Shown here piece after piece: positions 5,488 to 25,811 of a stretch of 35,389 bases of DNA; position 1 is the first letter of the stretch, and every line of letters begins with the position of its first letter. Below the pieces are notes generated by a model, which searched no databases, had not been told where the DNA came from, and was given only the letters and a program-made list of their open reading frames with translations. The stretch spans positions 41,404 through 76,792 of the forward strand of contig NZ_JAAFZU010000043.1 of the NCBI RefSeq assembly GCF_018263905.1, written 5' to 3'. A program made the translations under genes and the position numbers. Origin of the DNA: Loktanella sp. SALINAS62 (GTDB lineage Bacteria > Pseudomonadota > Alphaproteobacteria > Rhodobacterales > Rhodobacteraceae).

Positions 5488-6639
5488 ATGTCGAACGGTC
5501 GGCGGCGCGCCATGCGAACAACTTTAGAACTTCAACGTGCTGCACTTGCCGATTTCGGCTTGTTCGCCTTTCGATGTAACGACATCGATGATTTGCTTCA
5601 CCGTGCCACCGAACTGGTCTCATCCGCGATAGATGTGCCCCTTGTGAAGGTGCTCGAGCATTTTCCAGAGCGTGGTGAGATGCTCTTGCGCAGCGGCGTG
5701 AATTGGCAAGCGGGTGTCGTCGGCCAGGAAACCTTTGGAGACCATGAGAAGTCGCCAGGTGGCTATGCTCTGAGATCCGACACGCCCGTGGTTTCTCCGG
5801 ATCTGGATGCGGAAAATCGGTTTGAAACGCCCGACGTGCTACGGCGCCACGGCGTGAGAAGCATGGTGAACGTCATCATCGCCGGCGAAGGCGACCCATT
5901 TGGCATTCTGGAGGTTGATTCCCAAGAACTGCGCGAGTTCAGCGACGACGACGTGGCTTTCCTGCGCACTTACGCAAACCTTCTTGCTGCAGCCATCGAG
6001 CGGGTGAGATCGCACAGAGAACTGGAGCGTGCTGCCAGAGAGCAAGGTGTTCTGGCAAGAGAGTTGGGGCACCGCGTCAGAAATTTGTTTGGCCTTGTTC
6101 AAGCACTCGCGTCTCAGACATCGGTCACTGGCCGCACAGCTGCAGAATTTCGCGACGCCTATATTGATCGGCTCCAAGCTTTGTCGACTGCTGAAGGACT
6201 CGTATTCGAAAACGCTGACGAGCTTGCCGATCCGCTGGAGCTTGCGCATGAAATTCTTGCGCCGCATAGGCAGGACGATCCTGACAGGATCACGATCGAG
6301 GGGACTTCGGTTGGATTATCGTCGCGGCAGGCTCGCATGTTTGGCTTGGCTCTGCACGAACTTGCGACGAATGCAGCAAAATACGGAGCCCTTTCCGTCG
6401 CCGGTGGGAAAATACATCTCGAATGGCATCTTTCGGGTGCTGAAAGGGGTGCAGAGCGGCTGTCGATGATGTGGCAGGAGGCAGACGGCCCCGAGATCAC
6501 CCCGCCACAGCGAAAGGGCTTCGGCACCCGTTTACTGGAGGATGTCGTTGCACATGAACTGAACGGCGAGGCCGAGCTTTCATATAAGACGTGTGGCCTG
6601 CAATATCGCCTTAAATTTCCAGTGGACGTAGAACAATGA
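5488..6639 (+). CDS. GAF-domain HWE-family sensor histidine kinase
   Basis: Cytoplasmic sensor kinase of 383 residues without membrane segments. Residues ~25-170 form a GAF domain, a small-ligand or light/redox sensor. Residues ~178-260 hold the HWE dimerisation/phosphoacceptor region with RELGHRVRNLFGLVQAL; His195 is the likely phosphorylation site. The ATPase part has the HWE hallmarks: HELATNAAKYGAL (His290-Glu291, N-box), MMWQEADGP (Trp-x-Glu, ~328-335) and GFGTRLLE (G-box, 344-351). The start is uncertain between ATG 5488 and ATG 5512; neither has a strong Shine-Dalgarno. It is followed with ATGA overlap by a single-domain response regulator, its probable partner. An EcfG-like promoter lies just upstream. 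HWE kinases often feed the general stress response, which fits but is inference. Confidence 0.93.
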   Translation: MSNGRRRAMRTTLELQRAALADFGLFAFRCNDIDDLLHRATELVSSAIDVPLVKVLEHFPERGEMLLRSGVNWQAGVVGQETFGDHEKSPGGYALRSDTPVVSPDLDAENRFETPDVLRRHGVRSMVNVIIAGEGDPFGILEVDSQELREFSDDDVAFLRTYANLLAAAIERVRSHRELERAAREQGVLARELGHRVRNLFGLVQALASQTSVTGRTAAEFRDAYIDRLQALSTAEGLVFENADELADPLELAHEILAPHRQDDPDRITIEGTSVGLSSRQARMFGLALHELATNAAKYGALSVAGGKIHLEWHLSGAERGAERLSMMWQEADGPEITPPQRKGFGTRLLEDVVAHELNGEAELSYKTCGLQYRLKFPVDVEQ

Positions 6640-8008: not shown

Positions 8009-10102
8009 TCATCCGTCGACCGCCCTTGCTGCCATGGCGGCGAGCCAACCGGGCAGCAGCGGCTTCAACGTGTTCTGGATGTGGTCATCTGCTCTGCCTT
8101 CCTTGATCAGCTTCAGGATTTTCTGATCATCCTTTGAGAGCGCCCGCTTTGGCCAAGCGGCTGCGATAGTGCTTGCCAGGGCAAAACCAGCGAGCCAGTC
8201 TTTGAATTGGTGTGCCGCGCGTTTCCTCAGGCCCGACCCAATGTCCCCGTCGAAGACGACGATTTGAATATCACCGTACCGCAGCATGATGATGTCGAGC
8301 ACGCGCTGTACTTTGTTGTCACCGGGAAACTCGATGCCACCCAAAAGTGGCGGCAGCCATTCTGTTGGCGTCACGAACCGCGGCGCCACGATGACTGCCG
8401 TCAAATAACCATCAATCAGATCCGGACTGAGCGGGGTTTTGCGCAGCAGGCGCTCCAGCTCGCCTTTCGATTCGGGCGCGATGTCAGGACCCACGTCGTC
8501 GTCGGTTTCCGGATCGTCCAGTGAGGAAACGCCTTCTGGGCCCAGCCCTTGACTATCCTGTTCTGCAACATCCAGCGTCAGAGCGACGATCATCTCGAAG
8601 ATCGGTATCTTTTTGAGTGCCCGGCCGGTGTCCAGAGCATGCGCGACGGCCGCAAAGACAAGCCACGCATCGCCACCATCATGGCGCAGAATTGCCGCCG
8701 ACCTTGAAAAGAGCGATGACCAGAAGCCGCGTTGCGATTCCAAATGCGCCCAGACCACCTGCGTGGCCTGACGCTCGGTCCTGACCTCCTCCAAAGCTGA
8801 CGAGAGTTCCGCATCGCTGACAAACCAGCTCGAAGATATTTCGTGGTCCCGCACCCAAGAGATGCTGCGGCCAATAAGTTTTCCACGTTTGGCCGGAGAT
8901 AAATCGGCCAACTGGGGGTCCGGATCTGCGATATTGGCTGCCGTCGCAGAGGCGATATCGGATGGTGAGATGTCGCGGAGTCCCAGCATCTCTGCCACAT
9001 CCAGAAAGCCCGGTGCGGGGGGCACGTCTGCAGCGAGACCCTCGGCAAGTGCCGCGGCCAGTGCTTCAGAAAGATAATTCACCGGCACCACATGCATCGG
9101 CATCGACCCTTCGATTTCAGCGAGCGTGCGCCGCTGATCGCTGGCACTGCTGCAGGGGATGGCATAGGCGTCCTTGATGCCGTGACCCGTCTTGAGCAGA
9201 AGTGCCGCAATGCATTTTTTGCTGCCGCAACTGACGCTCGCCAGGATGCTCTGACTGCCGGTGCCGTCGGGCAATGACGACACCAGTCGATGAAGTGTCC
9301 ATGACCGGGGGGCAGACCCACCAGAGGGTTCGCGCCGCAGCGCTTCCTTGATCCCCCGATCCAGGATCGTCTTGGTCTCCGGATCTGGGATCCACTTGCG
9401 CAGTTGGATCAGATCGGAGAGCACCCCTGCATCCACGCCGCCCGCCTGCGCAAGGTCGGCAAACCCTTGGGCCGCTGCGGTGCGCATCCCGCCGACCGGA
9501 TCGAGCAGAAAATACCGTCCCACCGAAACCAGCTTTGAAATTCCCTGAGCAATCATTTCGTTCACAAAGTGGGCCGCTGCGGGCCTTGGCATCGCCCCTA
9601 AGGCTTCCCGCAAGACCATGTAAGCCGGATAGCCCGTGACATTGTCCGGGATCAGATCACGCATCAAATCTGCAATATCGGGCATGTCCATGGTCGCGAT
9701 GTCTGCATCATCGCCGGCGACGTCGGAACTAAACCGGATCCCATCGGGCGGCTCCAAACCGGCATCGATAAACGCCCGGCACAGTCCCATCTTTTGTCGG
9801 TTGTCAAAACTGTGCGATGCCGCTTTCGTATCAAGCCATCCATCGACCAGCGAAAAGATGCCCTGCGCGTCCTTTTCGCGGTTTTCGCGGTTCATGCGCA
9901 TGGCAGCGAGAACAGCACTGAAGAGCGCGAGCAGATCGTCGGGTAGCTCCCGCTCGTCATCCATTAGCGTGAGCATGCCAGACACCGCATGACGATTTGA
10001 CGCAATGCGCGGCGCCCAAAAGTCAGCCCACCGATAAATCAGGTGGTCATCCCCCTGTCCGGGCCGTTCTGCGATACACGCTTGAAGTATATTCTGTCGC
10101 AT
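8009..10102 (-). CDS. Uncharacterised 697-residue protein with UPF0149-like C-terminus
   Basis: A large, soluble, mostly helical protein. No signal peptide or membrane helix is visible. I do not recognise the first ~540 residues; they look like helical-repeat material. Residues ~550-690 resemble the UPF0149/YecA fold: TPLSPDLIDGYLTAVIVAPR followed by PTEWLPPLLGG, then FKDWLAGFALA, close to the family pattern of a DG(F/Y)LTA helix, a WLP segment and a W-GF helix. The Cys-rich SEC-C zinc motif of YecA is absent. An acidic stretch (SSLDDPETDDDVGPD) lies just before this domain. The gene stands alone, convergent with the DUF6328 gene. Coding character is supported by length and uniform composition. 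Function unknown; a plasmid- or phage-linked role is only a guess. Confidence 0.75.
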   Translation of the reverse strand: MRQNILQACIAERPGQGDDHLIYRWADFWAPRIASNRHAVSGMLTLMDDERELPDDLLALFSAVLAAMRMNRENREKDAQGIFSLVDGWLDTKAASHSFDNRQKMGLCRAFIDAGLEPPDGIRFSSDVAGDDADIATMDMPDIADLMRDLIPDNVTGYPAYMVLREALGAMPRPAAAHFVNEMIAQGISKLVSVGRYFLLDPVGGMRTAAAQGFADLAQAGGVDAGVLSDLIQLRKWIPDPETKTILDRGIKEALRREPSGGSAPRSWTLHRLVSSLPDGTGSQSILASVSCGSKKCIAALLLKTGHGIKDAYAIPCSSASDQRRTLAEIEGSMPMHVVPVNYLSEALAAALAEGLAADVPPAPGFLDVAEMLGLRDISPSDIASATAANIADPDPQLADLSPAKRGKLIGRSISWVRDHEISSSWFVSDAELSSALEEVRTERQATQVVWAHLESQRGFWSSLFSRSAAILRHDGGDAWLVFAAVAHALDTGRALKKIPIFEMIVALTLDVAEQDSQGLGPEGVSSLDDPETDDDVGPDIAPESKGELERLLRKTPLSPDLIDGYLTAVIVAPRFVTPTEWLPPLLGGIEFPGDNKVQRVLDIIMLRYGDIQIVVFDGDIGSGLRKRAAHQFKDWLAGFALASTIAAAWPKRALSKDDQKILKLIKEGRADDHIQNTLKPLLPGWLAAMAARAVDG

Positions 10103-10457: not shown

Positions 10458-12467
10458 TCAGGCGGCTTTCGGACCGCCTTCTTGTCTCAACTGGTTTTGG
10501 GCGCTGTTCATTGTATCAACCAACGCAGCTTGCGCTGCTGCCCCCAGCTTCCCCTTTGGTTTTGCTTTTGCGGGCGCCTTTTCACGCCGGCGTTGTGGAA
10601 CGGTTGTTTTCGGTTCACGCGCTTTCGTCATGTTCACATCGCGTTGTTCAATCTCAACCTTCTGCGCCTCTGACGCCTTTGTCGCGCGTTCCCGAACCTC
10701 CGTCATGGTCATGGCACGGCGCTTCGGATCGTCGGCTTCAGGGTAAGGGTAGACGGTCTTATCCTGAGCTTCGTAGATCGCTCGGATCTGCTTTGACTCA
10801 TAGTATTTGATGCGGTCGCCCAAAATCGGGTTCTGGCTATCGGGAACAATCAAAATCTTGTTGGGGTCCATCTGCCGGATTTCCTGCTTCGTCAGAAGCG
10901 GGCGCTTTTCCGTGCCGGTCGTGACACCGCCACCGCCAAAGCCGACAGTCTTGACCTCTTTCTGACGGTTCTTGGTTGATCCAGTTCGATCCCCGAGCAG
11001 GGTTTCAATTTCACTGGCCGTGCGGTCTTCCTTGGGCGCAAGATAGAGTTTGACCTGACAGGCGCTTTCGATCGCCTGCACTTCCTCCGGGGTGTATGGA
11101 ACGGACAGAAGGCCGGGAACCGACTGAGTGACGATTGCGAACCGTCCACCGTGACCAGCCGTTTGTTTCATGGCCTGGACGACAAGGGGCATGTGGCCCA
11201 ACTGGTCAAACTCGTCCAACAATATGAACACTGGAAAAGGCTCGTCGGACTCCGGCTTTGACGAACGCAGGAATGAAATAAGGTCTGCAAAGAAAAGCCG
11301 GATCAGGGAATTGAGGTCCTTCACATCGTCGGACAGCACTTCCAGATAGATCGACATTGGCGTGCGACGCATCTCCCTGAAGTCAAAATCGCTTGTGCGT
11401 GTGACGCGCTCCACTTTGGGGTTCGCCCACTGCGACAGGCCCGCCGTGCTCAAGATAGAGATAAAGCTCTGCGAGATTTTTGCGTCGAGCGATGCCGTGT
11501 AGTTGAGTTGGCGTGCTGCGGGCGGATATTGGCACTCCTTTGCCGCTTCCAGCAGGCGTTCGGCAGAGGATTTGCCAATATCGGCCCCCTCGCCCGTCCC
11601 AAAAATGATCCGGTAGATTTCGCCCATCGTCGCGTTGCCACGTTGTACGGCAAGGATGCCTGCGGAGATGAACAGCAGGATCGAACCATCCAGCCAGTCC
11701 TGATTGCCGTCTGATTGCAGAAAAAGATGCGCAACCCGACCAATCGCCGTCCAAAGCTCTTCCATGTTTTCAATATCAGCGACACCGGCCAAGGGATTGT
11801 AATTGTGCGTCGGGTGCTTGAAGTCGAACGGGGCGAACCGGAAAACTTTGTCGCCGAGCTGTGCACGCGCTCTTGACGTCTCGACCCACAGCTCGCCTTT
11901 CACATCGAGCGCGACCATCGAACCGGGGAATGTCAGCGCGTTCGGGATAACGAAACCCACGCCCTTACCGCTGCGCGTCGGCGCGACCAGCAGGATGTTG
12001 CTGACAGTGCTATAGAGTGCCGCGATGTAGCGGACACGGCGTGTGTTCAGAGACTTGTTCTTCTCGGGGTCGGTGTTGTTGGCCTTGATGTTGATCGGTC
12101 GATCCGGGTGCTGTGCCGGGGGGGCGATATGCTCACCGAGGACAAAACCTGCGCCCGGATCGTTCAGCATCCGGTTCTTGCGGACGCTCGATTTGGACTG
12201 AAACCGTCTGTCGCCGTAGTTGACAAGGCGGTCCTCGGCGACCGTCACAAGCGCTATGAGCAGAAAAAATGCGACGACGGCCAGCACGATCAAATGGCCG
12301 GTCAGGTATGGCTGTTGCATCAACATGCCGGACATGAGCGTTTTGGTGTGCAGCATGAGGTCGGTTGCCAAAATGTCTCGCCCTAAGGCGATGGTCAAAA
12401 ACACGCTGGCAATACCGGATCCTGCGACAAGACCGCAGATAACTGCGATCAGACAGGCGACGGTCAT
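10458..12467 (-). CDS. virD4: Type IV secretion coupling protein (VirD4/TraG family)
   Basis: Inner-membrane ATPase that brings the relaxase-DNA complex to the type IV secretion channel. About 669 residues from ATG 12467, two bases after the relaxase stop. Two N-terminal membrane segments (MTVACLIAVICGLVAGS and LIVLAVVAFFLLIALV) anchor it. The Walker A motif is APTRSGKG (about 162-169) and the Walker B region is FILLDEFDQLG. The typical TraG/VirD4 segments GSMVALDVKGELW and GGRFAIVTQSVPGL are present. The C-terminal ~80 residues are Lys/Ala/Pro-rich and basic, longer than the catalytic core needs and perhaps a substrate-docking tail. It is third in the mobC-relaxase-virD4 operon. No virB genes are visible, so the channel is encoded elsewhere. 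Confidence 0.95.
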   Translation of the reverse strand: MTVACLIAVICGLVAGSGIASVFLTIALGRDILATDLMLHTKTLMSGMLMQQPYLTGHLIVLAVVAFFLLIALVTVAEDRLVNYGDRRFQSKSSVRKNRMLNDPGAGFVLGEHIAPPAQHPDRPINIKANNTDPEKNKSLNTRRVRYIAALYSTVSNILLVAPTRSGKGVGFVIPNALTFPGSMVALDVKGELWVETSRARAQLGDKVFRFAPFDFKHPTHNYNPLAGVADIENMEELWTAIGRVAHLFLQSDGNQDWLDGSILLFISAGILAVQRGNATMGEIYRIIFGTGEGADIGKSSAERLLEAAKECQYPPAARQLNYTASLDAKISQSFISILSTAGLSQWANPKVERVTRTSDFDFREMRRTPMSIYLEVLSDDVKDLNSLIRLFFADLISFLRSSKPESDEPFPVFILLDEFDQLGHMPLVVQAMKQTAGHGGRFAIVTQSVPGLLSVPYTPEEVQAIESACQVKLYLAPKEDRTASEIETLLGDRTGSTKNRQKEVKTVGFGGGGVTTGTEKRPLLTKQEIRQMDPNKILIVPDSQNPILGDRIKYYESKQIRAIYEAQDKTVYPYPEADDPKRRAMTMTEVRERATKASEAQKVEIEQRDVNMTKAREPKTTVPQRRREKAPAKAKPKGKLGAAAQAALVDTMNSAQNQLRQEGGPKAA

Positions 12468-12469
12468 TT

Positions 12470-14848
12470 TCACATCGAAAGCCCCCGCGACCGCGCACAA
12501 TTCGGATCGACGGCCTCAAGACCGGCTTCAATCTCGTCCAGCGCCAAGCCCACATCGACAGACTTTGCGCTCTTCAGAAGCTCCCTCGCTGCGAGCCGCT
12601 GGTTGGCGGGCGTATCGACGTATTGAGAGAGTGCATCCATCTTGCCGGATGCCACTTCCTTCATGGCCCCCCTGCCCTCCAAGGCCACAAATGCGATCAG
12701 CATTTGTCTGCCGGCTGCACTGTCCGCCAGATCGGCGCGGCCTGTCGTTGCCGCGGTGTTGGCCACGTCCTGCATGACGCGGGCCACGCCGTCACGATCA
12801 TAGACCTTGCTGTCAGCGATGATCGCTTTTTCGACCTTGCCAAGATCCATCTGCCAGTCGCGGTAGCGGCCAGCGGCGACTTCGTAGTTCTCTGATACCA
12901 TCCGAGACTCGACGGCCTTCGCGCCGAATTTGCTTTCAATTTGCAGGACGCGGCCTGCGGCCTCCTGCCGTATCATCGCTTCGTTTTGTTCGCGGGATTG
13001 CTCGGGCCTCAAAACCTGCCGATCATCCTCGGCTGAACCAAAATCGTTGGTCGCAACGGCCATCATTGCGGCTTTAATGTCTTTGCCGTGCCGTGCAAAA
13101 ATCTCCGCCGCAACAGCATCGTAAGCCTGCTCCTGCTCTTTCGTGAGATCGCCGCGCTGCTTTGCCGTCGCAAGGTCGATCAACTCGTTTCCAAGCTGAT
13201 CAAGCGCACGTTCTTTGCCGGGCTGACCTTTCGCTGTTTCCGCTTGAGAGAGCGCAATCTGCATCCCCTCAAAACGATCAAGCGGGGTCGAAACTCCATC
13301 CTCCACGACGAGAGTGGTTGCCTCTTCAATGCGGCGGGACGCATCATCAAAGGCTTTCATGTCGCGTGGCGGCGATGGCATAGCGGCGGCAATCGCGGCT
13401 ATGTCGCCCCGTTCCATGCGGGCGTTTTCGACGGGATCGCCAATCGCATTGATAAGACGCTCTTGCACCGCAAGTGGGTCGAGACCCATCTGGGCACCTT
13501 TCTGGACGTAGGCTTTCATCTCCTTTGGGATTTCTGCGAGCGTGTGGTTGTGCATTTCCGCATAGGCGTCAGCCAAGGCGGGCATAACGAGATTGAATTT
13601 GTCAGGCACTTCCCCGGTCACGAGGTAGGAATCCAGCACATTTTCGTTGACGAACTCTCGCAGCAGATCGGCGTTTTCTTCTGTAACATAAAGGGCTGCG
13701 CGGGCTTCCAAAGCGCTCGTGTCTGGAATGAGATACGACGACGGCGTTTCTTTGAAAGCGTGCCAGATCGTGTCTTCCGTCAGGTCCGGGGTCACGTCCG
13801 TTTCGATGATGTTCAAAGCTGTGTCGATCTTTGACATGACCGACGCACGGCGGTTTTCCGGCAAAGCGTCAATGGCGTCTTTGTTCTGCTCGGCCCAGCC
13901 GATCAAAGACGTGCGTATGTCCTCGCGGGCGGCGGTGACATCAAGGTCAATGTCCATCATCTGTCCTTTCGGGACCTCATTGCCTGCGAATAGGGCTGCT
14001 GCTGAAATATACGCACGCTTCGCAATCATCGGTGCGCCAATGGTCTCGGCAAATTCTGCCAAGGTGGTGTAAAGTTCTGCGGTGTCCCGCATATCCTGCC
14101 TGCGCCATTCAGAGGTCAGACTGCTTTTGACTTCGGGGGTTGCGAGTGTGCGGCCTTCGCGGGCGGCAAAGACCGCGGCACTCGTGATCGGTGCGCCATA
14201 AAGGCCGCGGTCGGCACGCGTCAGGCTTTCCAGCCGCAGGCCGTAAGTGTCTGCAATGTCGGTCATGCGATCCCGCATCATCTGCGGATTGAAAATCCCT
14301 TCGGAGGATATGGAAAACCAGGTCCCATGTTCGCCACGATTATTCAGAACGACATGAACGTGAGGATTGGCGGTGTCCGTGTGCAGGGCCGCAACGTATT
14401 CCCAAGTCTCCGCGATATGCGTCTGATCCTCGAACATTTCGGCGCACCATTGTTGCGCGATCACGAAGGCAGCGTCCTGGGACACGTCGTCGGGGAACGA
14501 CAGCACCATGTGGCTCGTATGACCATTGCGGGGGCGACCCTTCCAGTTTTGCGCCCATGCACTCATCATCTGATCGAGGTCAGCCTGGTCAAAAGCGCAC
14601 TTGTCGATGCTGACGCCGGGTGCGAAGCCGAAGATGCCCTTGGCCTTACCATTCACATAAGCCAGCTGTCCCGCCAGTTGCTTTTGATGCTGAACGCCAG
14701 CGCCGGGGATGCGCTTGACGAAGGCGCTGCCGGTCGAGGTCAGGCTTTTCCAGACACGATTGCCACGCGACTTCGCACCGCCAACGGACGTATGGCCCGC
14801 ACTGCGCCGCGCCCGGATCATGATATCATCGTAGAACCCGCCGCTCAC
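12470..14848 (-). CDS. VirD2-like (MOBP) conjugative relaxase
   Basis: DNA-nicking transesterase of 792 residues that starts conjugative transfer at oriT. Motif I contains LAYVNGKAKGIFG with Tyr64 the likely nucleophile, in the position of VirD2's catalytic Tyr. Motif II is GHTSHMVLSFPDD (~109-121). Motif III is HTDTANPHVHVVLNN, with the metal-binding His156, His163 and His165. These match VirD2 and other MOBP relaxases closely. The C-terminal ~500 residues are helical and unlike VirD2's short tail; I recognise no helicase or primase motif in them. The start ATG 14848 overlaps the MobC-like stop (ATGA). The predicted nic site lies just beyond the operon at 15438/15439. Confidence 0.93.
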   Translation of the reverse strand: MSGGFYDDIMIRARRSAGHTSVGGAKSRGNRVWKSLTSTGSAFVKRIPGAGVQHQKQLAGQLAYVNGKAKGIFGFAPGVSIDKCAFDQADLDQMMSAWAQNWKGRPRNGHTSHMVLSFPDDVSQDAAFVIAQQWCAEMFEDQTHIAETWEYVAALHTDTANPHVHVVLNNRGEHGTWFSISSEGIFNPQMMRDRMTDIADTYGLRLESLTRADRGLYGAPITSAAVFAAREGRTLATPEVKSSLTSEWRRQDMRDTAELYTTLAEFAETIGAPMIAKRAYISAAALFAGNEVPKGQMMDIDLDVTAAREDIRTSLIGWAEQNKDAIDALPENRRASVMSKIDTALNIIETDVTPDLTEDTIWHAFKETPSSYLIPDTSALEARAALYVTEENADLLREFVNENVLDSYLVTGEVPDKFNLVMPALADAYAEMHNHTLAEIPKEMKAYVQKGAQMGLDPLAVQERLINAIGDPVENARMERGDIAAIAAAMPSPPRDMKAFDDASRRIEEATTLVVEDGVSTPLDRFEGMQIALSQAETAKGQPGKERALDQLGNELIDLATAKQRGDLTKEQEQAYDAVAAEIFARHGKDIKAAMMAVATNDFGSAEDDRQVLRPEQSREQNEAMIRQEAAGRVLQIESKFGAKAVESRMVSENYEVAAGRYRDWQMDLGKVEKAIIADSKVYDRDGVARVMQDVANTAATTGRADLADSAAGRQMLIAFVALEGRGAMKEVASGKMDALSQYVDTPANQRLAARELLKSAKSVDVGLALDEIEAGLEAVDPNCARSRGLSM

Positions 14849-15393
14849 AGGCGTTCTCCCGCGTGCAGTGCGTTCCTGCCTTGCTGTCGCACCTCGCTGA
14901 AGCCGTCAGAAATCAGCCTATCGACGACGGTGTAGGTATGCCGAACCGTCGCCAGAAACTGCCTATCCTCTGGCGACAGCTTGGCCCCACCCCTCAATGC
15001 CGACCGGTTCATTGCGTAGGTAAGCTGATTGAGGTTGCGACCCTGCGCACGCAACTCGCGTCTCGCCTCGGTCAGATCTAGTATTTCATGGCGACGCAGC
15101 TCCAGGAAACCCGTCGCGGAGCGCACCAATGAACGCAAGGCGGCGGTTCGCGAAGGCAATCCCGCATCCACAACGAAGACGTCCAACGCCCGCAATTCGA
15201 CGTCAGACAGGCGGAATGTGATGTTGTGGGAAGCACGATCCGGCTTCGCATGGCCGTGACCCCGATCCTTTCGCAAAGCGTAGATCGTGGAAATGTGGAC
15301 ACCAAATTTCGCAGCAACTGCCTTCGGGGCAGCGCCCTCTAAAAGCATGTTCGACGCCGCGATCTTGTCCGTGGTCTTGAACGATTTCGGCAT
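14845..15393 (-). CDS. MobC-like mobilisation accessory protein (HTH plus RHH)
   Basis: A 182-residue DNA-binding protein, probably the relaxosome accessory factor that recruits the relaxase to oriT. Residues ~5-42 look like a helix-turn-helix (NMLLEGAAPKAVAAKFGV then STIYALRK). Residues ~57-95 look like a ribbon-helix-helix (HNITFRLSDVELRALDVF then SRTAALRSLVR). Residues ~118-132 hold the NLNQLTYAMNRSA motif typical of MobC families. It is first in the mobilisation operon and overlaps the relaxase by four bases. It starts about 45 bases from the predicted nic, so it likely binds its own promoter region and represses itself. The combination of two DNA-binding modules is a little unusual. Confidence 0.82.
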   Translation of the reverse strand: MPKSFKTTDKIAASNMLLEGAAPKAVAAKFGVHISTIYALRKDRGHGHAKPDRASHNITFRLSDVELRALDVFVVDAGLPSRTAALRSLVRSATGFLELRRHEILDLTEARRELRAQGRNLNQLTYAMNRSALRGGAKLSPEDRQFLATVRHTYTVVDRLISDGFSEVRQQGRNALHAGERL

Positions 15394-15830
15394 TTCGAAA
15401 GCCCTAAAACGAAACTGTCTTGCAAGCTACATATCCTGCTACCTCTTCCCTAACATTATAGGTTATGACTCACAACTATAACAATGCCACATATCTATAA
15501 TGTTAGTCCGTTTGAGCGACCCGCAGGGACGCGACGGAGCGCCCACCGGGGTAGCGACGGAACTCCGAAGGGGTGACCGTCCCGAAGGGGCGAAAATTTC
15601 CACAGAGGCCCCAGCACGGGCCTCTCATTGCGAAGTCCGATCTTGCCCTGTGTGTGCAACCCCCTGCCCTACTCGCGTTCCTCATGGCTCCTCAGCGAGC
15701 GGAAACGACGTTTCGGTCCAACACCTCCGGCGGCATCGCAATAATCTCGATTTGCCGGTGCGCCTGGCGTTGCTGCGAGAACCAAGTCCATCCGTGCTGC
15801 ACAAGGCCTGGGGCGCCAGTTTCTAGGCAG
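15394..15830. other. oriT: Predicted origin of transfer (oriT) region
   Basis: Non-coding interval between mobC and the VirC1-like gene. It contains: ATATCCTGCT at 15431-15440, close to the T-DNA border and RP4-type nic core (ATCCTG|C), with predicted cleavage at 15438/15439 on the plus strand; a perfect 12-bp inverted repeat (CTAACATTATAG, 15450-15461, with CTATAATGTTAG, 15495-15506); four small CCC-N3-GGG-type hairpins at 15520, 15542, 15564 and 15581; and an 8-bp perfect stem AGAGGCCC/GGGCCTCT at 15604-15625. Cleavage in this orientation sends the relaxase operon in last, as in known conjugative plasmids. Confidence 0.75.
15450..15506. repeat. Perfect 12-bp inverted repeat beside the nic site
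   Basis: CTAACATTATAG at 15450-15461 and its exact complement CTATAATGTTAG at 15495-15506, separated by 33 AT-rich bases. It begins 11 bases 3' of the predicted nic. It is likely a binding site for the MobC-like protein or another relaxosome component. Confidence 0.75.
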
Positions 15831-16022
15831 CAGGTCAGAGGCGGCAGGACGGAGGCTCGAGGTTTTGGGTCAGCGGTCAGAGGTTAGAGGTCAGAAGCAA
15901 TAGACGGCGGGATTGAGGTACCAGACGGTAGGCCGAAGGTCGTATACAATAGAATTGAGGTTGCGGGTTACAACCTATAGCCAATAGATATCAGGTTGTA
16001 GGTGACAGGTTTCAGGCTGCAC
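15813..16022. repeat. Tract of thirty contiguous 7-bp units (consensus GTnnnAG)
   Basis: Read in steps of seven from 15813, the sequence divides into thirty units with no insertion or deletion. Twenty-two of thirty end in AG and twenty-two of thirty begin with G; examples are GTCAGAG, GTTAGAG, GTTGTAG and GTTTCAG. The units are diverged from each other, so the tract does not look like simple slippage. TAG/TGA triplets fall in all frames, so it is not coding. It ends 46 bases before the VirC1/ParA-like start and begins ~370 bases from nic. By form it is an iterated protein-binding array (centromere or transfer enhancer). Confidence 0.8.
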
Positions 16023-16068
16023 GTTACCACCTAGGACGTGCATCGGCCCCGACATTGAGGACACCAAA

Positions 16069-16770
16069 ATGAAGATCATTACTTTCGCTTCGACCAAAGG
16101 TGGCGTTGGCAAGTCCACGACAGCAGCCCTCATTGCGGACAGCTTCTTGCGGAGCGGTCAAACCGTCCAGATCATTGACTTCGACAATCAGGCCAGTGTT
16201 ACAAACTGGGCGATCCCTGTTTGCGCACGCAACGAAGGCATTGATATAATCGAGTTTGATATACCGCACGAAGCGACAGTGGCGGAGTGCTACAACACGA
16301 TGCTGGACCGGCTTCAAGATGACGTTGATTGGGTCATTATTGACACGAAGGGCGGAGAGGATGCAAAGCAGATGGCAGCTCTTGCAATCTGCGACCGCGT
16401 ATTCTCGCCGTGTGGCCCCGAAAAGAACGAAGTAACCGGCGTTGAAAAGACATTGGCCTACTTCAAAATCGCCCTCGAAGCGACGGGCGATAATGATACT
16501 GACCCCAAAGACCTTCTCACTGTCATCTATCAGAAAGAAGGCCAATTTCCGAACGCTCAGATGCTTGCTTACGAAGAACTGATTCATGGTCATTACGGCG
16601 CGATCAAAGGGCTGCATCGATCAAGCGCGATCAAATCGTTTATTGGTGACGATATGACCAGCGACGAGGCAATTGATGCAGCGGAATCTGACGGTCGAAG
16701 CTTTGAGGCGATCAAAAAAATACAGAAGGCCGCAGATGATTTGGCCGCTCTTATCACGGGAGAATTTTAA
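16069..16770 (+). CDS. ParA/VirC1-like ATPase
   Basis: A 233-residue deviant-Walker ATPase without an N-terminal DNA-binding domain, as in VirC1 and small ParA proteins. The Walker A motif is STKGGVGKSTTAAL (residues ~8-21). IIDFDNQASVTNW matches motif A' and VDWVIIDTKGG matches Walker B. VirC1 binds the overdrive sequence beside T-DNA borders and stimulates relaxosome assembly; ParA proteins move plasmids. Its position beside a VirD2-like relaxase and oriT favours the VirC1-like role. A Shine-Dalgarno (GAGG) sits about eight bases before the ATG. It overlaps the next gene by one base (TAATG). A second ParA-type protein (RepA) is encoded in the repABC operon, so this one is probably not the main segregation ATPase. 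Confidence 0.85.
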   Translation: MKIITFASTKGGVGKSTTAALIADSFLRSGQTVQIIDFDNQASVTNWAIPVCARNEGIDIIEFDIPHEATVAECYNTMLDRLQDDVDWVIIDTKGGEDAKQMAALAICDRVFSPCGPEKNEVTGVEKTLAYFKIALEATGDNDTDPKDLLTVIYQKEGQFPNAQMLAYEELIHGHYGAIKGLHRSSAIKSFIGDDMTSDEAIDAAESDGRSFEAIKKIQKAADDLAALITGEF

Positions 16771-17255
16771 TGGCCGTTGAACGCAAGCCCCGCCAGAAGA
16801 TGCCTGTTCCGGGGCTCACTGACCGAGACCGGGCTTCCATTGCAACGACAGCGAAGGCTAACGGCCTCGGTAAGGCTGAAGCTGACACGTCACAATCAGA
16901 GCCGACGCCGGTTCTAAGCAAAGCGCCTCCAGCTCACACAAAGCCCGATCACACGTCAAAGGCGGCACCTGCGGAACACCAGTATTCGGACGAAACAGTG
17001 AACTTCGCTCCAACAAACACTCCGCAGACCCCGGTTCGCAAGCCTGAACCAGCCGCGGTTGCCGCTGACCTCAAGCAACTGCGGGTGACCGTGGCTCATT
17101 CGAGCGACCTCGCGCTAGCCATACACGACAAATTATTAAGCCTGAGCCCCGATGCTCAAAAGTTCGCAAGCTCTGCGATTTTGCTGCGTGAATTCCTGCG
17201 TGAGCATGACGAAGAACTGGCGAAGATCTTCCGCAAGACGAACGGCCTTCAATAG
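16770..17255 (+). CDS. Uncharacterised partner of the VirC1/ParA-like ATPase
   Basis: A 161-residue protein translated through a TAATG overlap with the ATPase gene. I do not recognise a family. Residues 1-~90 are rich in Pro, Thr, Ala, Lys and Gln and look disordered. Residues ~95-161 look helical (DLALAIHDKLLSLSPDAQKF and LLREFLREHDEELAKIF). By position it corresponds to the second component of ParA-type cassettes, which usually binds the centromere and stimulates the ATPase, often through a disordered tail. No clear helix-turn-helix or ribbon-helix-helix is visible, so DNA binding is inference. Confidence 0.7.
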   Translation: MAVERKPRQKMPVPGLTDRDRASIATTAKANGLGKAEADTSQSEPTPVLSKAPPAHTKPDHTSKAAPAEHQYSDETVNFAPTNTPQTPVRKPEPAAVAADLKQLRVTVAHSSDLALAIHDKLLSLSPDAQKFASSAILLREFLREHDEELAKIFRKTNGLQ

Positions 17256-20196: not shown

Positions 20197-21279
20197 CTAA
20201 AAAGCGTGGTGATGCGTGGACCGATTGTCAGCTGACAATTTTCCAGCACGACGCAGGACCACGGCCTGAAGCATTGGTCGCACATCGAACCCACCTGCCC
20301 GTCCTTGTTGGGTCAAGCGACGCAGATACGCTCCGGGGCTGTCTATCTCGCGCAGTCTCTCTAGAATGCATAATATGGCAACGCTCGCTGCATTCTGACC
20401 CAATGTCCGTTGCGCTGCGATCATGACCGGTGGATCAATCCCGATCATCGGTGCAATCCGACTGGCAACGTCGTGCAACTCCTGCCAACTGCGCACCGTG
20501 GCTGGGAAATAGCACCTGTATTCTGTGCAAGTCTCTGTCACCTCAAGTAGCGATGTCCCCTGATCGTGACCTTCAGAGTCAAGGTTATATTTTGTTTTAG
20601 TATGTATGTGCCGCTCATACTGATTGTCGGCGCCGCTCATTTTATCGGCGTCGCAGGCCGTGTTGGCCGGTGTTAGCCGATCGCGTAGAGCATCTGCGAT
20701 GCTGGTCAGCTCCGCCAGCGGGGTCTTGCGCCTTAACAGCCGACGTGCGGTCTCGGTCAAGTTATCTGGACCAGACTCGTCGATGACGGCTTGCCGCAGC
20801 GCGATGACAGTCTGGCGGGCCACTGCAATCTCCTCGGCCTGCATCCGATGTTCGGCAGCGGCTTGCGTGATCTGTTCAGCTGCACGGGCAAGGGGCGAGA
20901 GGTCGAACCCGAAGGCCAGCGCGATCCGCTGACCGATCCGCCGTGCAAAACGTTTGTGATTTGGACTGTCGCGCCGGTCGACAACGCCAAGCTCGACCAA
21001 CTGGGCCAAGTGACGGCGCAGTGTGCTTTCGGGCATGCCGTTCAGCCGGTCCGAAAGGGTGCGATTGGCGGGAAAAACGATGGCGTCGTGCGGCTGTGCC
21101 GAAATCTGACGGCCCGGATGAAAGGTCATCAGCGCCTTGAGCACGCCAAGTGTGCGGTGCGAAAGGCCGAACGTCGACGCCGCCTCTGTCAGGGCCGACA
21201 GGATGTCCCATTTATCGACCGTCGTCGCGGGGCGAGGCTGCGCCTGACCACTGCTAGCGAAAAGCGTGGGTGATGTCAT
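20197..21279 (-). CDS. repC: RepC replication initiator of the repABC operon
   Basis: Plasmid replication initiator of 360 residues. The N-terminal winged-helix region is typical: WDILSALTEAASTFGLSHRT, LGVLKALMTFHPG, FPANRTLSDRLNGMPESTLR. A helical middle follows, then a polar linker (DKMSGADNQYERHIHTKTKY) and the C-terminal domain (LGQNAASVAILCILERLREI). In repABC plasmids RepC acts at an origin within its own gene; an AT-rich patch at ~20575-20635 encodes the linker and is the likely origin. It is separated from repB by 136 bases holding an antisense RNA. A parS site is embedded in its last codons. Confidence 0.95.
   Translation of the reverse strand: MTSPTLFASSGQAQPRPATTVDKWDILSALTEAASTFGLSHRTLGVLKALMTFHPGRQISAQPHDAIVFPANRTLSDRLNGMPESTLRRHLAQLVELGVVDRRDSPNHKRFARRIGQRIALAFGFDLSPLARAAEQITQAAAEHRMQAEEIAVARQTVIALRQAVIDESGPDNLTETARRLLRRKTPLAELTSIADALRDRLTPANTACDADKMSGADNQYERHIHTKTKYNLDSEGHDQGTSLLEVTETCTEYRCYFPATVRSWQELHDVASRIAPMIGIDPPVMIAAQRTLGQNAASVAILCILERLREIDSPGAYLRRLTQQGRAGGFDVRPMLQAVVLRRAGKLSADNRSTHHHAF
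20224..20239. promoter_or_regulatory. parS: parS partition site 2, inside the 3' end of repC
   Basis: Perfect 16-bp palindrome ATTGTCAGCTGACAAT, same core as site 1, with centres 68 bases apart. It lies inside the repC coding sequence, where the minus strand reads it as the residues KLSADN near the RepC C-terminus. Confidence 0.85.
20574..20635. other. oriV: AT-rich segment in repC, probable replication origin
   Basis: A sharply AT-rich stretch (including TTATATTTTGTTTTAGTATG) within an otherwise GC-rich repC. In studied repABC plasmids oriV lies within repC in such a region. Position and composition support this; iterons were not seen. Confidence 0.5.
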
Positions 21280-21329
21280 GTCATGTTCACGATGGACGTA
21301 AAAATTCAGGCCCCGCCCGGCGGGCAGAG

Positions 21330-21358
21330 TTGACAGATCGGGAAGTGCTAGCTATCTC
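21330..21358 (+). promoter_or_regulatory. Promoter of the repABC antisense RNA
   Basis: A perfect -35 TTGACA at 21330-21335, a 17-base spacer and TATCTC at 21353-21358. It points against repC and gives a transcript starting near 21365. Confidence 0.75.
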
Positions 21359-21364
21359 CATAGT

Positions 21365-21416
21365 GCGAGTATTGAGAAGGGCCTTCCGGGTATATGCCTG
21401 GGGGGCTTTTTCTTTT
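21365..21416 (+). ncRNA. Counter-transcribed RNA controlling repC
   Basis: About 50 nt from the predicted start to the end of an intrinsic terminator. It is antisense to the repB-repC leader. In repABC plasmids such an RNA (inc-alpha) represses RepC synthesis and determines copy number and incompatibility. Size, place and orientation all match; the exact start is predicted. Confidence 0.75.
21381..21416 (+). terminator. Intrinsic terminator of the antisense RNA
   Basis: A stem of about ten pairs (GCCTTCCGGG with CCTGGGGGGC, including G-T pairs) around the loop TATATG, followed by TTTTTCTTTT at 21407-21416. Confidence 0.75.
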
Positions 21417-22393
21417 CAGGTCTGGTCTCGTGCCTCCGTTGATGTTGCGTTGCCTTCGGAACGATCGCTGGTCCAGCGATCGTGAAGCTCGTTCAGCAGG
21501 GCCTCTGCCTGTGTCGCTAGCCAGTCGTCGAAACCGGTTGCGGGGATCGTCAGCGTCAGACCCTTTGTGCCCTTGCGCAGCTGCGCGATCACCGTCCCGT
21601 CGGGGGCGGCAATGGCTTGCGGGGCAGGGCGGTCGGACTTCGTGGCCAGTGTCTTCATCTCGGCCCGTTGAAAGACTTCTTCGAACCGCGCATCGGAATT
21701 CAGACCAGTGAAGTCGGGGCGTCCGGTCACGGTGATGGCGCGGGATTTCGCCGCCGGGTCCTCGAACAGGGCGGCCAGCGCCATCCAGCGATCGCGGCCG
21801 ATGCTGGGTGCGGCGCCGATGACCCGCAGAAAGGGCAGATCGAATGCCGTGCCGACCTTTAGCATGCGGCTGACCATCGGCAGGTCCATCGACAGCGCCG
21901 CAGCGATTGTCTGCCGGTCGAAATCGGCCGCCTGCATCTGTGCGGCAAAGCTGGCCTTTTCGATGAAGCTTAGGTCCTTTCGGGCGGTATTCTCCTGCCC
22001 CTGCGCCAGCACCAGCGCGTGATCGTCCAATTGCCGGACCATAGCCTTAACGGTCATGTTCAGCGCCTTAAGCGCGCGTAGCCGACGGCGGCCATACACG
22101 ATCTCGAACCGGCCCTGTTTCGTAGAGTGGGGGCGCAGCAGCACAGGCACCTGCTGACCATAGGTCGAAAGGCTCTCCTGTAGCGCGTCCTGATCGGCGT
22201 CCTGCAATGTCAGCCGGTCTTCCAGTCCAGCATCGTCGATCAGGGCCGGGTCGATGTCCTGAACGGCACTTTCCTGCAGCTTCGTCAGGGACGACTGCAA
22301 TGCGCCGACAGCCCCTTGTGGGGCCCGGCGCGGTGTCCGTTGTGTCTCGGTCCGGGCGGGTGATCCGCCCATCAGGATGCCTTTGCGTGCCAT
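21416..22393 (-). CDS. repB: RepB partition protein (ParB family)
   Basis: Centromere-binding protein of about 325 residues. The ParB N-terminal domain contains GQQVPVLLRPH and VYGRRRLRALKALN (the GxRRxRA box). A helix-turn-helix follows (FDRQTIAAALSMDLPMVSRMLK). The C-terminal ~100 residues would dimerise. I chose ATG 22393, which overlaps the RepA stop as TAATG and begins MARKGILMG, typical of RepB; ATG 22405 is an in-frame alternative. It should bind the two parS palindromes at 20153 and 20224. Confidence 0.95.
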   Translation of the reverse strand: MARKGILMGGSPARTETQRTPRRAPQGAVGALQSSLTKLQESAVQDIDPALIDDAGLEDRLTLQDADQDALQESLSTYGQQVPVLLRPHSTKQGRFEIVYGRRRLRALKALNMTVKAMVRQLDDHALVLAQGQENTARKDLSFIEKASFAAQMQAADFDRQTIAAALSMDLPMVSRMLKVGTAFDLPFLRVIGAAPSIGRDRWMALAALFEDPAAKSRAITVTGRPDFTGLNSDARFEEVFQRAEMKTLATKSDRPAPQAIAAPDGTVIAQLRKGTKGLTLTIPATGFDDWLATQAEALLNELHDRWTSDRSEGNATSTEARDQT

Positions 22394-23568
22394 TATCTGC
22401 CCCATGCTTTCTGGATCAGCATTTCGATCTCGTCATTCACTAGATTAAGTGAATCGACCGCACGGTCGTAGGTGTTGCGGTGAAACTGGGTCCGGTCCAC
22501 CTCATACACGGTCTGGTGCGTCAGGCCCGCGTCAGAAATCGCGGTCGATTTCAGCATCGGTGCGACCATGACTTCATCCCCGAACAACTGCCGGAGAAAG
22601 GCCACGACCTGCTGCTGGGGGCCGTCGTTGGGTTCGTACCGATTGATCAGAAAGCGCAGGAAGTCGAACTCCATCTTGGCCCCGGCTTGCGAGACGACAT
22701 CGAGCAGGTCAGCGCTCATCTGCAGGAACTGCGACATGGAGGCCACGTCGAGCATGTTAGGCACGATGGTGATCAGCAGGCCGGTCGAGGCGCAGAGCGC
22801 TGACAGCGTGAGGTAGCCCAGCTGTGGCGGGCAGTCGAAGACGATGACGTCGTAATCCGCCTCGACGTCCCGCAGGACGGTGGCCAGCCGGGCAAAGAAC
22901 GGCGGTTGCGCGTTGGCCATCAGCGCACGAGGCGTTTCGTGTTCGAATTCTTGCAACAGCAGACCGGCAGGGGCCAGGTCGATGCCGGTAAAGAATGTCG
23001 GCTGAATGATGCTACGGAAGGGCAGGGGGTCTTCGTAGCGGATCGCGTCGTAAACCGTTCCGGTTTCAAGGAAATCGACTTCTGGCCGAAAGCCGAACAG
23101 GGTAGTGAGGGATGCCTGCGGGTCGATATCGACGCACAGCACGCGGTAGCCTTTCAGGGCTAACCGCTGGGCGGTGTGGATCGTACTGGTGGTCTTGCCA
23201 CTGCCACCCTTGAAGTTCAGGAACGACAGTACTTGCACATTGTCACCGGGCCGCCGACCCTTGGCATAGGTGCCTGGTTTCTTGGCACCTGCCTCGAGAG
23301 TGGTGCGGATATCCAGCAGATCTTGTGCGGAATAGTGACGCCGCCCCCCGGCAGAGGTATCGACCTCTGGCGCGCGGCCTTCGAAATGCAGCTTGCGCAG
23401 AAAGCTGGCCGAGATATTGAGGAGTTCAGCCGCCTCTGAGGCGGAAAAGTGGCGCAAATCCTTGGTGGCGTTCGGGGCGAAGACCTTTTCCATGTGATCC
23501 TGCAACGCCGCCGAAAGTTGTTCGGCGTTCTCGCGGATGCGCGTGCTGATCTGGAATGTTTCGCTCAC
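22393..23568 (-). CDS. repA: RepA partition ATPase (ParA family)
   Basis: Partition ATPase and autorepressor of the repABC operon, about 391 residues. The N-terminal helix-turn-helix (HFSASEAAELLNISASFLRK) is typical of RepA. Next come Walker A (FLNFKGGSGKTTSTIH), A' (CVDIDPQASLTTLFG) and Walker B (VIVFDCPPQLGYLTL). I prefer the GTG at 23568, which follows AAGGA by seven bases and gives a typical N-terminus (VSETFQISTRIRENA). The GTG at 23643 would add 25 basic residues unlike the family. A possible promoter (TTGCCA, 18 bases, TATAGA) lies at ~23660-23690 on the minus strand. Confidence 0.94.
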   Translation of the reverse strand: MSETFQISTRIRENAEQLSAALQDHMEKVFAPNATKDLRHFSASEAAELLNISASFLRKLHFEGRAPEVDTSAGGRRHYSAQDLLDIRTTLEAGAKKPGTYAKGRRPGDNVQVLSFLNFKGGSGKTTSTIHTAQRLALKGYRVLCVDIDPQASLTTLFGFRPEVDFLETGTVYDAIRYEDPLPFRSIIQPTFFTGIDLAPAGLLLQEFEHETPRALMANAQPPFFARLATVLRDVEADYDVIVFDCPPQLGYLTLSALCASTGLLITIVPNMLDVASMSQFLQMSADLLDVVSQAGAKMEFDFLRFLINRYEPNDGPQQQVVAFLRQLFGDEVMVAPMLKSTAISDAGLTHQTVYEVDRTQFHRNTYDRAVDSLNLVNDEIEMLIQKAWGR

Positions 23569-23643
23569 CTGTTCGTCCTTGCCCGCCGGCTTGACTGCCG
23601 GTCTGTATAGTTTGTCGAGTAACGCTTTTTTGCGATAGCGCAC

Positions 23644-24890: not shown

Positions 24891-25811
24891 TCACGCGGCG
24901 GCGCGGTCGTCCTCTGCGATGGTCTCGGCGTCGGCTGCTGCCAGCACAAAATCCACGGCCTTTTGTGCTTCGGCTGCGGCCTTGAAAATCAGCCCCTTGT
25001 CGGATTTCAGCGCTTCAAGCCACCCTTCAATATATGCTGCGCTTTGGTCAAATTCCGGCTCTACGCCAAGGCGCACGTCCAACAGGCAAGCGCCAATCTC
25101 TGCCACAAGCTCCTCGAACGCATAAGCCGCCTTGTTGCCAAACTTCTTGATCCGGTCCAGCCGCTTTTCCGCGCCAGTCCAGTGCGTGATTTCATGGGCC
25201 AGAACGCCATAGTAGCGGGCGGCATTGGTGAAAGTGCCAACGGGCGGCATGTGAACCTGATCCGCCGCGGGGCGATAGTAGGCGCGGGGGTCTGTGGTGC
25301 TGACAATATCAGCCCCGATGCTGCCGAAAAATGCCTCGAGGGCTGGGTCGGCTTCGGTGCCAAGGTCGCGGGCGGGATCGGGCTGAACGTAGTATTCAGC
25401 GGGCAAGCCCTCGATCTGATCCGCGTTAAAGACGTTGTTCGCCTTCGCAAAGCCGATGCGGGCCTTGCTCTCGCCTTCGGTGCTGCCGTCGCTCTGTCCG
25501 TCGTCCTTCTGCTCGAAGGTGCCATAGAAAACGCTGCGGGCGCATTTCTCGCCCTTCTTCACGGTGCCGCCAAGCTGCTGCGCCTGTTTAAAAGTCATCC
25601 AGCGTTCGGACGCATAACCGTGCTCGGATGCGACAGCCCACAACATGAGGACGTTGATGCCGCGATAGCCTTCGCCATTGTGACGTACGGGAAGACAAGC
25701 GCCACCTGGACCACCTGTCCACGGCTTGCGCCACGGCGGGGTGCCTGCCTCGATCTGTGCGATGATTGTGTCGGTGACGTGCTGGTGAATGTCCAAACGC
25801 TCTTTAGCCAT
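24891..25811 (-). CDS. ardC: ArdC-like antirestriction protein
   Basis: A 306-residue protein of the ArdC family (N-terminal ssDNA-binding domain plus zincin-like metallopeptidase domain), known to protect incoming plasmid DNA from restriction. The N-terminal domain has IIAQIEAGTPPWRKPWTGG and YRGINVLMLW. The C-terminal domain has the zinc motif HEITH (residues 206-210, in LAHEITHWTGAEKRL) and a downstream EELVAEIGACLL that supplies the third ligand. AAAGGA lies seven bases before the ATG. The 0.5-kb upstream region is nearly identical to that of the DUF3768 gene at 33 kb. An intrinsic terminator follows. If the predicted oriT is right, the gene is in the leading part of the plasmid with the transferred strand as template, suitable for early expression. 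Confidence 0.93.
   Translation of the reverse strand: MAKERLDIHQHVTDTIIAQIEAGTPPWRKPWTGGPGGACLPVRHNGEGYRGINVLMLWAVASEHGYASERWMTFKQAQQLGGTVKKGEKCARSVFYGTFEQKDDGQSDGSTEGESKARIGFAKANNVFNADQIEGLPAEYYVQPDPARDLGTEADPALEAFFGSIGADIVSTTDPRAYYRPAADQVHMPPVGTFTNAARYYGVLAHEITHWTGAEKRLDRIKKFGNKAAYAFEELVAEIGACLLDVRLGVEPEFDQSAAYIEGWLEALKSDKGLIFKAAAEAQKAVDFVLAAADAETIAEDDRAAA

Follow-up and report, generated by a model that had tools for sequence, protein, structure and literature searches.

A phased array of heptads between oriT and a small ParA gene in a Loktanella mobilisation module, a candidate overdrive- or centromere-like platform

The described systems closest to the locus reported here are the VirC1/VirC2-overdrive system of Agrobacterium, the stbABC operon of plasmid R388 and the heptad centromere of plasmid pSM19035. 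To our knowledge, it is not settled what VirC1 and VirC2 recognise, nor how a ParA-type motor links oriT to the secretion channel. VirC1 is reported to bind overdrive and enhance nicking (PMC4285021), VirC2 has a ribbon-helix-helix fold according to a title cited in PMC11351099, and a minimal overdrive of 24 bp is used in vectors (PMC13277942). For R388, direct repeats are described around the promoter of the stb operon, which has roles in transfer and in stability; StbA binds direct repeats beside oriT, and deletion of the ParA-like stbB abolished conjugation (PMC3098194). As regards pSM19035, at least four contiguous heptads are needed (PMC9499535).

The window studied here is a stretch of 35,389 nucleotides from Loktanella sp. 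SALINAS62. At positions 15813-16022 of its plus strand there are 210 bases that read directly as 30 in-phase heptads without a single indel, with a consensus of about GYTRYAG. The original prediction had counted 22 of 30 units starting with G and 22 of 30 ending in AG, and direct reading agreed with both figures; position 6 is A in 26/30 units and position 7 is G in 26/30. It had also proposed that autocorrelation should peak at 7 and its multiples, above the level of shuffled sequence, and this was found. Identity within the array was 0.44-0.50 at lags 7, 14, 21, 28, 35 and 42 and 0.19-0.27 at the other lags up to 42. The period-7 information amounted to 4.49 bits, compared with a mean of 0.82 for 500 shuffles (z 22.8), and mean identity over lags 7-35 was 0.463, the highest value among 2000 dinucleotide shuffles being 0.330. 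When periods 2-24 were scanned, 7 and its multiples 14 and 21 alone stood out in the array, which also ranked first among the 210-bp stretches of the window for periods 4-21; the 7-bp signal of the best 140-bp stretch was 0.366 outside the array and 0.487 inside it. The heptad array is thereby confirmed as a real feature, and a profile fit widens it to 15803-16026, that is, 32 units. However, a higher order in which three units make 21 bp was not confirmed, as no 21-bp super-period was found in the five arrays tested (p 0.22, 0.13, 0.10, 0.11 and 0.96). Super-periods of two, four and five units were also tested and were unsupported.

The array is part of a mobilisation module. Ahead of it, on the plus strand, lies a nic-like motif of the MOBP type, CATATCCTGCTACC (15430-15443), whose putative cleavage site (15438^15439) is about 374 bp from the array; the MOBP core ATCCTG is quoted in a paper dealing with VirC1 and VirD2 of H. 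pylori (PMC3772185). If nic is cut as in other MOBP systems, the array and parA would lie in the leading region. The motif is adjoined by a perfect 12-bp inverted repeat with arms at 15450-15461 and 15495-15506. The minus strand encodes a VirD1/MobC/NikA-like relaxosome protein of 182 aa (14845-15393), divergent from parA, a VirD2-like relaxase of 792 aa (12470-14848) and a VirD4-type coupling protein (10458-12500). The family matches of the 182-aa protein are below the curated cut-offs (NCBIfam VirD1 E 0.0011, 18.9 bits vs a cut-off of 173; NikA-like and MobC weaker or similar). The relaxase and the coupling protein exceed the Pfam cut-offs (Relaxase, 48.9 bits; T4SS-DNA_transf, 233 bits), and the top NCBIfam match of the relaxase is VirD2 (1.1e-18, below cut-off). 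The order of the module is VirD4-, VirD2- and VirD1-like genes, nic motif, inverted repeat, array, small ParA gene and partner gene. The window also contains a complete repABC (20197-23643) as a separate replication module on the minus strand, made of repC (20197-21279), repB for a ParB-type partition protein (21416-22405) and a gene for a repA-type ParA ATPase (22393-23643). Next to the VirD4 gene, the window encodes a UPF0149-domain protein of 697 aa (8009-10102) that recurs at this place in each of the other four loci of the genus group (82-85% identity over the available part), and one such protein is annotated near a Gemmobacter relaxase. An ArdC-type antirestriction protein with a zincin-like domain is encoded at 24891-25811 and is 95% identical in loci L033 and L034.

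A ParA search of 101 genomes yielded three further genomes of the genus group, namely G003, G006, with two copies on one contig, and G001. The four other loci have a period-7 array at the same place (z 9.7-13.7 with the window included; 0/200 shuffles) and keep the order VirD4-relaxase-VirD1-parA-partner with repC and repB beyond, and repB and repC adjoin all five modules of the group; repA was observed at three of the four, the stretch of G001 stopping short of it. ParA is 93-95% identical to that of the window at three relative loci and 49-50% at G001, where period 7 is kept with another unit, about GCGCSAT. Phase had been expected to persist in homologous plasmids. As to the period, all four relatives agree with this, but the G003 array contains a single one-base phase slip, its first units being offset by one base.

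Among the four close loci the columns at the unit junctions are kept and the middle of the unit changes, the invariant columns in registers 1-7 being 18, 17, 7, 9, 5, 18 and 19 of 27 each. Altogether, 93/189 columns are invariant in the array vs 291/406 in the rest of the intergenic region. This unequal conservation of the seven registers points to selection. The earlier proposal that strictly phased, diverged units reflect selection on spacing gains support from it, and from the maintenance of phase with unit turnover in the four relatives and in the 49 linked loci described below. The arrays of the window and of the two G006 copies (G006a and G006b) differ by a 21-bp block. Indels between homologues in multiples of seven were considered and rejected; no claim is made on them because gap sizes are mixed between the relatives' arrays and the alignment of self-similar DNA is unreliable.

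The VirD1-like protein, relaxase, VirD4 protein, ParA and partner of the three close relatives are 83-96% identical to those of the window, whereas RepC is 25-27%, RepB 34-36% and RepA 36-49% identical. Therefore, the array travels with the transfer genes rather than with the replicon. The G006 contig (C4, 456 kb) has two array-bearing mobilisation modules, L033 at about 28 kb and L034 at about 171 kb, and two rep gene sets, so that it resembles a fusion of two plasmids. Just downstream of the first parA-partner pair, L034 contains the remnant of a second pair (8062-9244) in which the parA copy aligns only from residue 16 (42% identical) and is followed by a partner-like frame (31%). In L036, a parA N-terminal fragment with an internal stop (6348-6569) also lies downstream of the first pair.

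The same layout was found on other plasmids and genomes. A search for VirC1 (PF07015) covered 394 family genomes, with close to one for each genus; 52 of these genomes had matches at 1e-12, and 30 of the best 31 matches were obtained as loci. Locus L102, where no P-loop ORF was found, was dropped before the counts. Within these best 31 matches, an array was present upstream of parA in 29/29 loci with a P-loop ORF (z 6.8-26.4; 0/60 shuffles), with period 7 in 26, 8 in two and 9 in one, and the fetched flank included a VirD1/MobC-like ORF in 27 of the 30 loci. The arrays of the family comprise 21-56 units. In addition, eight PLSDB plasmids were hand-picked from relaxase and VirD1-like hits. Seven have a small ParA divergent from a VirD1/MobC-like gene; the remaining one, L072, has no ParA annotated at the locus and stayed outside the scoring. 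These seven and three further PLSDB plasmids all bear arrays (10/10; z 5.2-18.9; 0/200 shuffles), L070 and L071 giving 4/8/12-bp signals with no clean 8-bp one and L073 an 8-bp signal nearly equalled by those of 4 and 12. A ParB_N match is present on 10/10 PLSDB plasmids, in a ParB-size frame (322-372 aa) on eight, one of them below cut-off; W02 and W07 have it only within longer frames (617 and 675 aa), which are not necessarily partition proteins.

The class-wide search covered 385 genomes, 21 of which matched and gave 27 loci. Both VirD1/MobC-linked loci have period 8 (L107, z 4.6; L120, z 4.9), and the 25 unlinked ones include nine arrays at z of at least 4.5, two of them with period 7. 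Two of 54 general ParA loci show a clear VirD1/MobC-like match, both with period 8; at z of at least 4.5 the other 52 gave no period-7 array and nine arrays of other periods, two of which are the same place. L058 and L120 are likewise the same place and were counted once. The weak VirD1/MobC-like matches at L009 and L018 (E 1e-4 and 8e-4), with signals of period 8 and 9 (z 4.2 and 4.0), were put with the unlinked 52. For a held-out set of 20 lower-scoring VirC1 matches, the prediction was recorded ahead of scoring; these were fetched from 31 remaining matches, of which four were already covered by other searches and seven were left out. Arrays were found in the four VirD1/MobC-linked loci of this set (7, 7, 7 and 8 bp; z 6.2-13.4). 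Among its 16 unlinked loci, period 7 exceeded z 4.5 in three (L139, L141, L142) and reached z 4.1 in L138, 5- or 10-bp arrays were present in six and nothing clear was seen in the other six. The held-out result therefore indicates that the array is regular with VirD1-linked ParAs and that heptads are not confined to them, L112 and L124 being, with the four loci just named, cases of heptads beside small ParAs whose fetched flank is without a VirD1/MobC-like gene.

Phased arrays were thus present in 49/49 examined VirD1/MobC-linked small-ParA loci, L009 and L018 being outside this number, with period 7 in 37, 8 in nine, 9 in one and 4/8/12 in two; they do not represent 49 independent cases, because many are close relatives and a plasmid is possibly in both collections. 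A nic-like motif was plausibly placed within 800 bp upstream of parA in 18 of the 44 loci searched. Upstream arrays of period 5/10, 6 or 11 were seen at small-ParA loci whose fetched flank is without a VirD1/MobC-like gene (L143, L145, L148, L150, L152, L153, L044, L045, L049, L062, L110 and L117).

In one large group of these arrays a single G recurs in each unit. In L095, L101, L103, L104 and L135 it is present in 53/53 units, at 7-bp steps along 371 bp in which the other positions are variable; elsewhere in that group the figures are 51/51 in L100 and 43/43 in L085, L096 and L098, and in the Gemmobacter plasmid L069 it is 40/40. The window array is looser than the 53-unit group, with the key G in 28/32 units. 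Over 1064 aligned unit pairs between homologues of the 53-unit group, the key G showed 6 substitutions vs 224-421 at the other six registers, a contrast that is descriptive because the base was picked as the most informative and the pairs are not independent. If such a G stays in phase 53 times and hardly anything else is fixed, DNA would here be recognised, to an extreme degree, through register and not through sequence.

The presence of a VirC1/ParA-like ATPase beside the array, as originally proposed, was corroborated. The gene at 16069-16770 (plus strand) encodes a small ParA-like ATPase of 233 aa with some VirC1 similarity (PF07015, 27.1 bits for a cut-off of 24, residues 1-112 only), and VirD1-like and VirD2-like genes adjoin. 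Its Walker motif occupies residues 10-16 and it has no N-terminal DNA-binding domain. In NCBIfam, ParA_partition (71.9 bits) scored above VirC1 (32.1 bits, cut-off 313), both far under cut-off. Matches to this ParA in PLSDB were all below 60% identity. From a first tree 12 near-duplicates were removed; the final one contained 64 rows, 31 linked and 33 hand-picked, and those left out included long-branch L097, L041, L009, L020, L030 and RepA. This tree unites the 28 other VirD1-linked ParAs in one clade (100/96) and puts the window group outside it on a long branch, the nearest rows of the window ParA beyond its own group being, by path and with weak support, two unlinked period-7 loci. The position outside the VirC1-module clade would agree with convergence of the window ParA, but this was not supported, since the AU test did not reject the joining of both groups in one clade (p 0.097). 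Along the linked rows, period 7 vs 8/9 needs at least three changes (of the 4/8/12 rows L070 and L071, L070 was entered as 8).

The partner gene (16770-17255, plus strand), whose start overlaps the parA stop, encodes a protein of 161 aa with conserved N and C ends and a variable middle, which is the candidate binder of the array. It gave no match in Pfam, NCBIfam, PDB sequences or the profile of the relatives' partners. Its model contained helices only (pLDDT 62 overall), and a fold search with this poor model gave no match. Its own profile matched three of the 394 family genomes: that of the window, G003 and a third whose weak match is probably spurious. In PLSDB, neither the DNA nor the partner found a match, and the viral contigs searched gave no useful one. 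The relatives' partners are variable in their N-terminal part according to the alignment. An AlphaFold2 model of the L087 partner built from 23 sequences predicts two ribbon-helix-helix units in one chain (pLDDT 92-97 over blocks 91-200), the first with a strand at 90-97 and helices at 101-109 and 114-126, the second with a strand at 151-158 and helices at 159-169 and 177-205. Foldseek returned no hit for this model at E 0.001; VirC2 (2rh3) was third (E 0.24) with the highest probability among the PDB hits (0.60), and chains of the F-plasmid relaxosome were also among the hits. The L074 partner matched NCBIfam VirC2 (6.5e-6, below cut-off). Such an asymmetric tandem unit, if the model is right, would suit arrays of one orientation.

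On balance, we consider it fairly probable that the array is an overdrive- or centromere-like platform beside oriT which loads the VirC1-like ParA. It would act in cis, in the leading region of oriT, as one half of a ParA-type positioning complex reserved for the mobilisation module. A DNA-binding protein from the parA operon, most likely the partner, would coat the heptads cooperatively with one protomer per 7 bp, few bases being read in each unit and neighbours holding the register. The coated array would then load and stimulate the small ParA, which might help the VirD1/VirD2-like relaxosome to assemble or take its position and to reach the VirD4-type coupling protein. The same complex likely autoregulates parA. 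The VirD1-like protein could be the binder instead; the operon of the partner is the likelier source because arrays occur where the fetched flank has no VirD1/MobC-like gene. In favour of the platform are strict phase with turnover of units, the array staying with the transfer genes in the three close relatives, phased arrays in all 49 VirD1/MobC-linked loci examined, a separate repABC, the tandem model of L087 and the precedents of VirC1/overdrive and R388 stb. Against it stand the unmatched and poorly modelled partner of the window, the position of its ParA outside the VirC1-module clade and the higher NCBIfam score of this ParA as ParA_partition than as VirC1, the unlinked heptad arrays and the low count of nic-like motifs (18/44).

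The unlinked arrays bear on another reading, that of a second plasmid partition centromere in which the plasmid is segregated by means of the small ParA, its partner and the heptads, and oriT is nearby only by chance or for historical reasons. The order array-parA-partner is that of known heptad centromeres. Moreover, unlinked small ParAs have arrays (z of at least 4.5, periods 5-12) in 9/52, 9/25 and 9/16 loci; seven such loci have partners of 97-149 aa, most of them with an end that looks ribbon-helix-helix-like by eye, and the weakly supported nearest outside rows of the window ParA are two such loci of period 7. However, repB and repC adjoin each of the five modules of the genus group, module and replicon genes have been exchanged independently, and no examined VirD1/MobC-linked locus was without an array. 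We regard this reading as doubtful, although it is kept as the main rival because R388 StbA serves stability and transfer at once.

The position of the array within the shared intergenic region upstream of parA would also suit an operator, where binding of the partner or the VirD1-like protein to the heptads would serve solely to repress parA and the mobilisation genes or to set the timing of their transcription; autoregulation is frequent among such partition proteins. Nevertheless, an operator needs far fewer than the 20-56 units, covering about 140-450 bp, that are present in linked loci of the family and genus, and no promoter-like site was detected on the plus strand in or next to the array by a scan that may not suit this host, so that a purely regulatory array seems improbable. 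Units all in one orientation relative to parA could likewise belong to a transcribed leader bound as RNA through regular NAG triplets, or be neutral remnants of a tandem repeat. But relatives keep the period and not the AG triplet, and neutral decay is disfavoured because of the G in phase in 53/53 units and its few substitutions relative to the other registers; we find both hardly credible.

If the platform is the right reading, it may extend further. Tentatively, a conjugative centromere could be general among alphaproteobacterial VirD1/VirD2-type modules, in the form of a long array with units of 7 or 8 bp, in many cases with one invariant G in each unit, on which a VirC2-like protein of tandem ribbon-helix-helix type would form a coat and load VirC1. 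The overdrive of Agrobacterium would then be a short displaced derivative, and the Loktanella-group module would have reached the same design via a different ParA lineage and partner. A long, recognisable array beside oriT in many genera can be used directly in assays of binding, ATPase activity and mating, can help to show in raw sequence which side of oriT is leading, and brings heptad centromeres, R388 stb repeats and overdrive into a single scheme open to testing.

These parallels make the original proposal of a new class of centromere or transfer enhancer too strong. The window resembles R388 stbABC, where a ParA-like StbB and a DNA-binding StbA lie beside oriT, but the R388 repeats are two sets of five of 9 bp with 2-bp spacing and those here are some 30 unspaced units of 7 bp. 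With pSM19035 parS it shares contiguous 7-bp units with a ParA, read there by the ribbon-helix-helix ParB (omega). The pSM19035 unit is WATCACW, that of the window about GYTRYAG, and the profile of the window partner has no PDB sequence match; unlike that of pSM19035, the array adjoins oriT, and its plasmid is already equipped with repABC. The native pSM19035 fragment studied has seven units of mixed orientation (PMC9499535), in contrast to 30 of one orientation. Like type Ib ParABS, the window has a small ParA, an overlapping partner gene and repeats upstream. With the Agrobacterium system it has in common VirD1-, VirD2-, VirD4- and VirC1-like proteins and a cis element near the nic motif, whereas no similarity of the partner to VirC2 was found with Pfam, NCBIfam or the relatives' partner profile. 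Overdrive, moreover, lies to the right of the T-DNA right border (PMC4285021), and the 210-bp array lies between oriT and parA. Other sources deal with Paracoccus plasmids (PMC3832669), with Par and oriT of NAH7 (PMC12421886) and with roseobacter conjugation (PMC4886583), PMC4949242 being further literature cited. In the accessible parts of the open-access literature no description was found of a heptad array between oriT and a VirC1-like gene, which is weak support for novelty because most subscription papers lay outside the search. Beside the described systems, what looks new is the long diverging array as a regular feature of VirD1/VirD2/VirC1-type modules.
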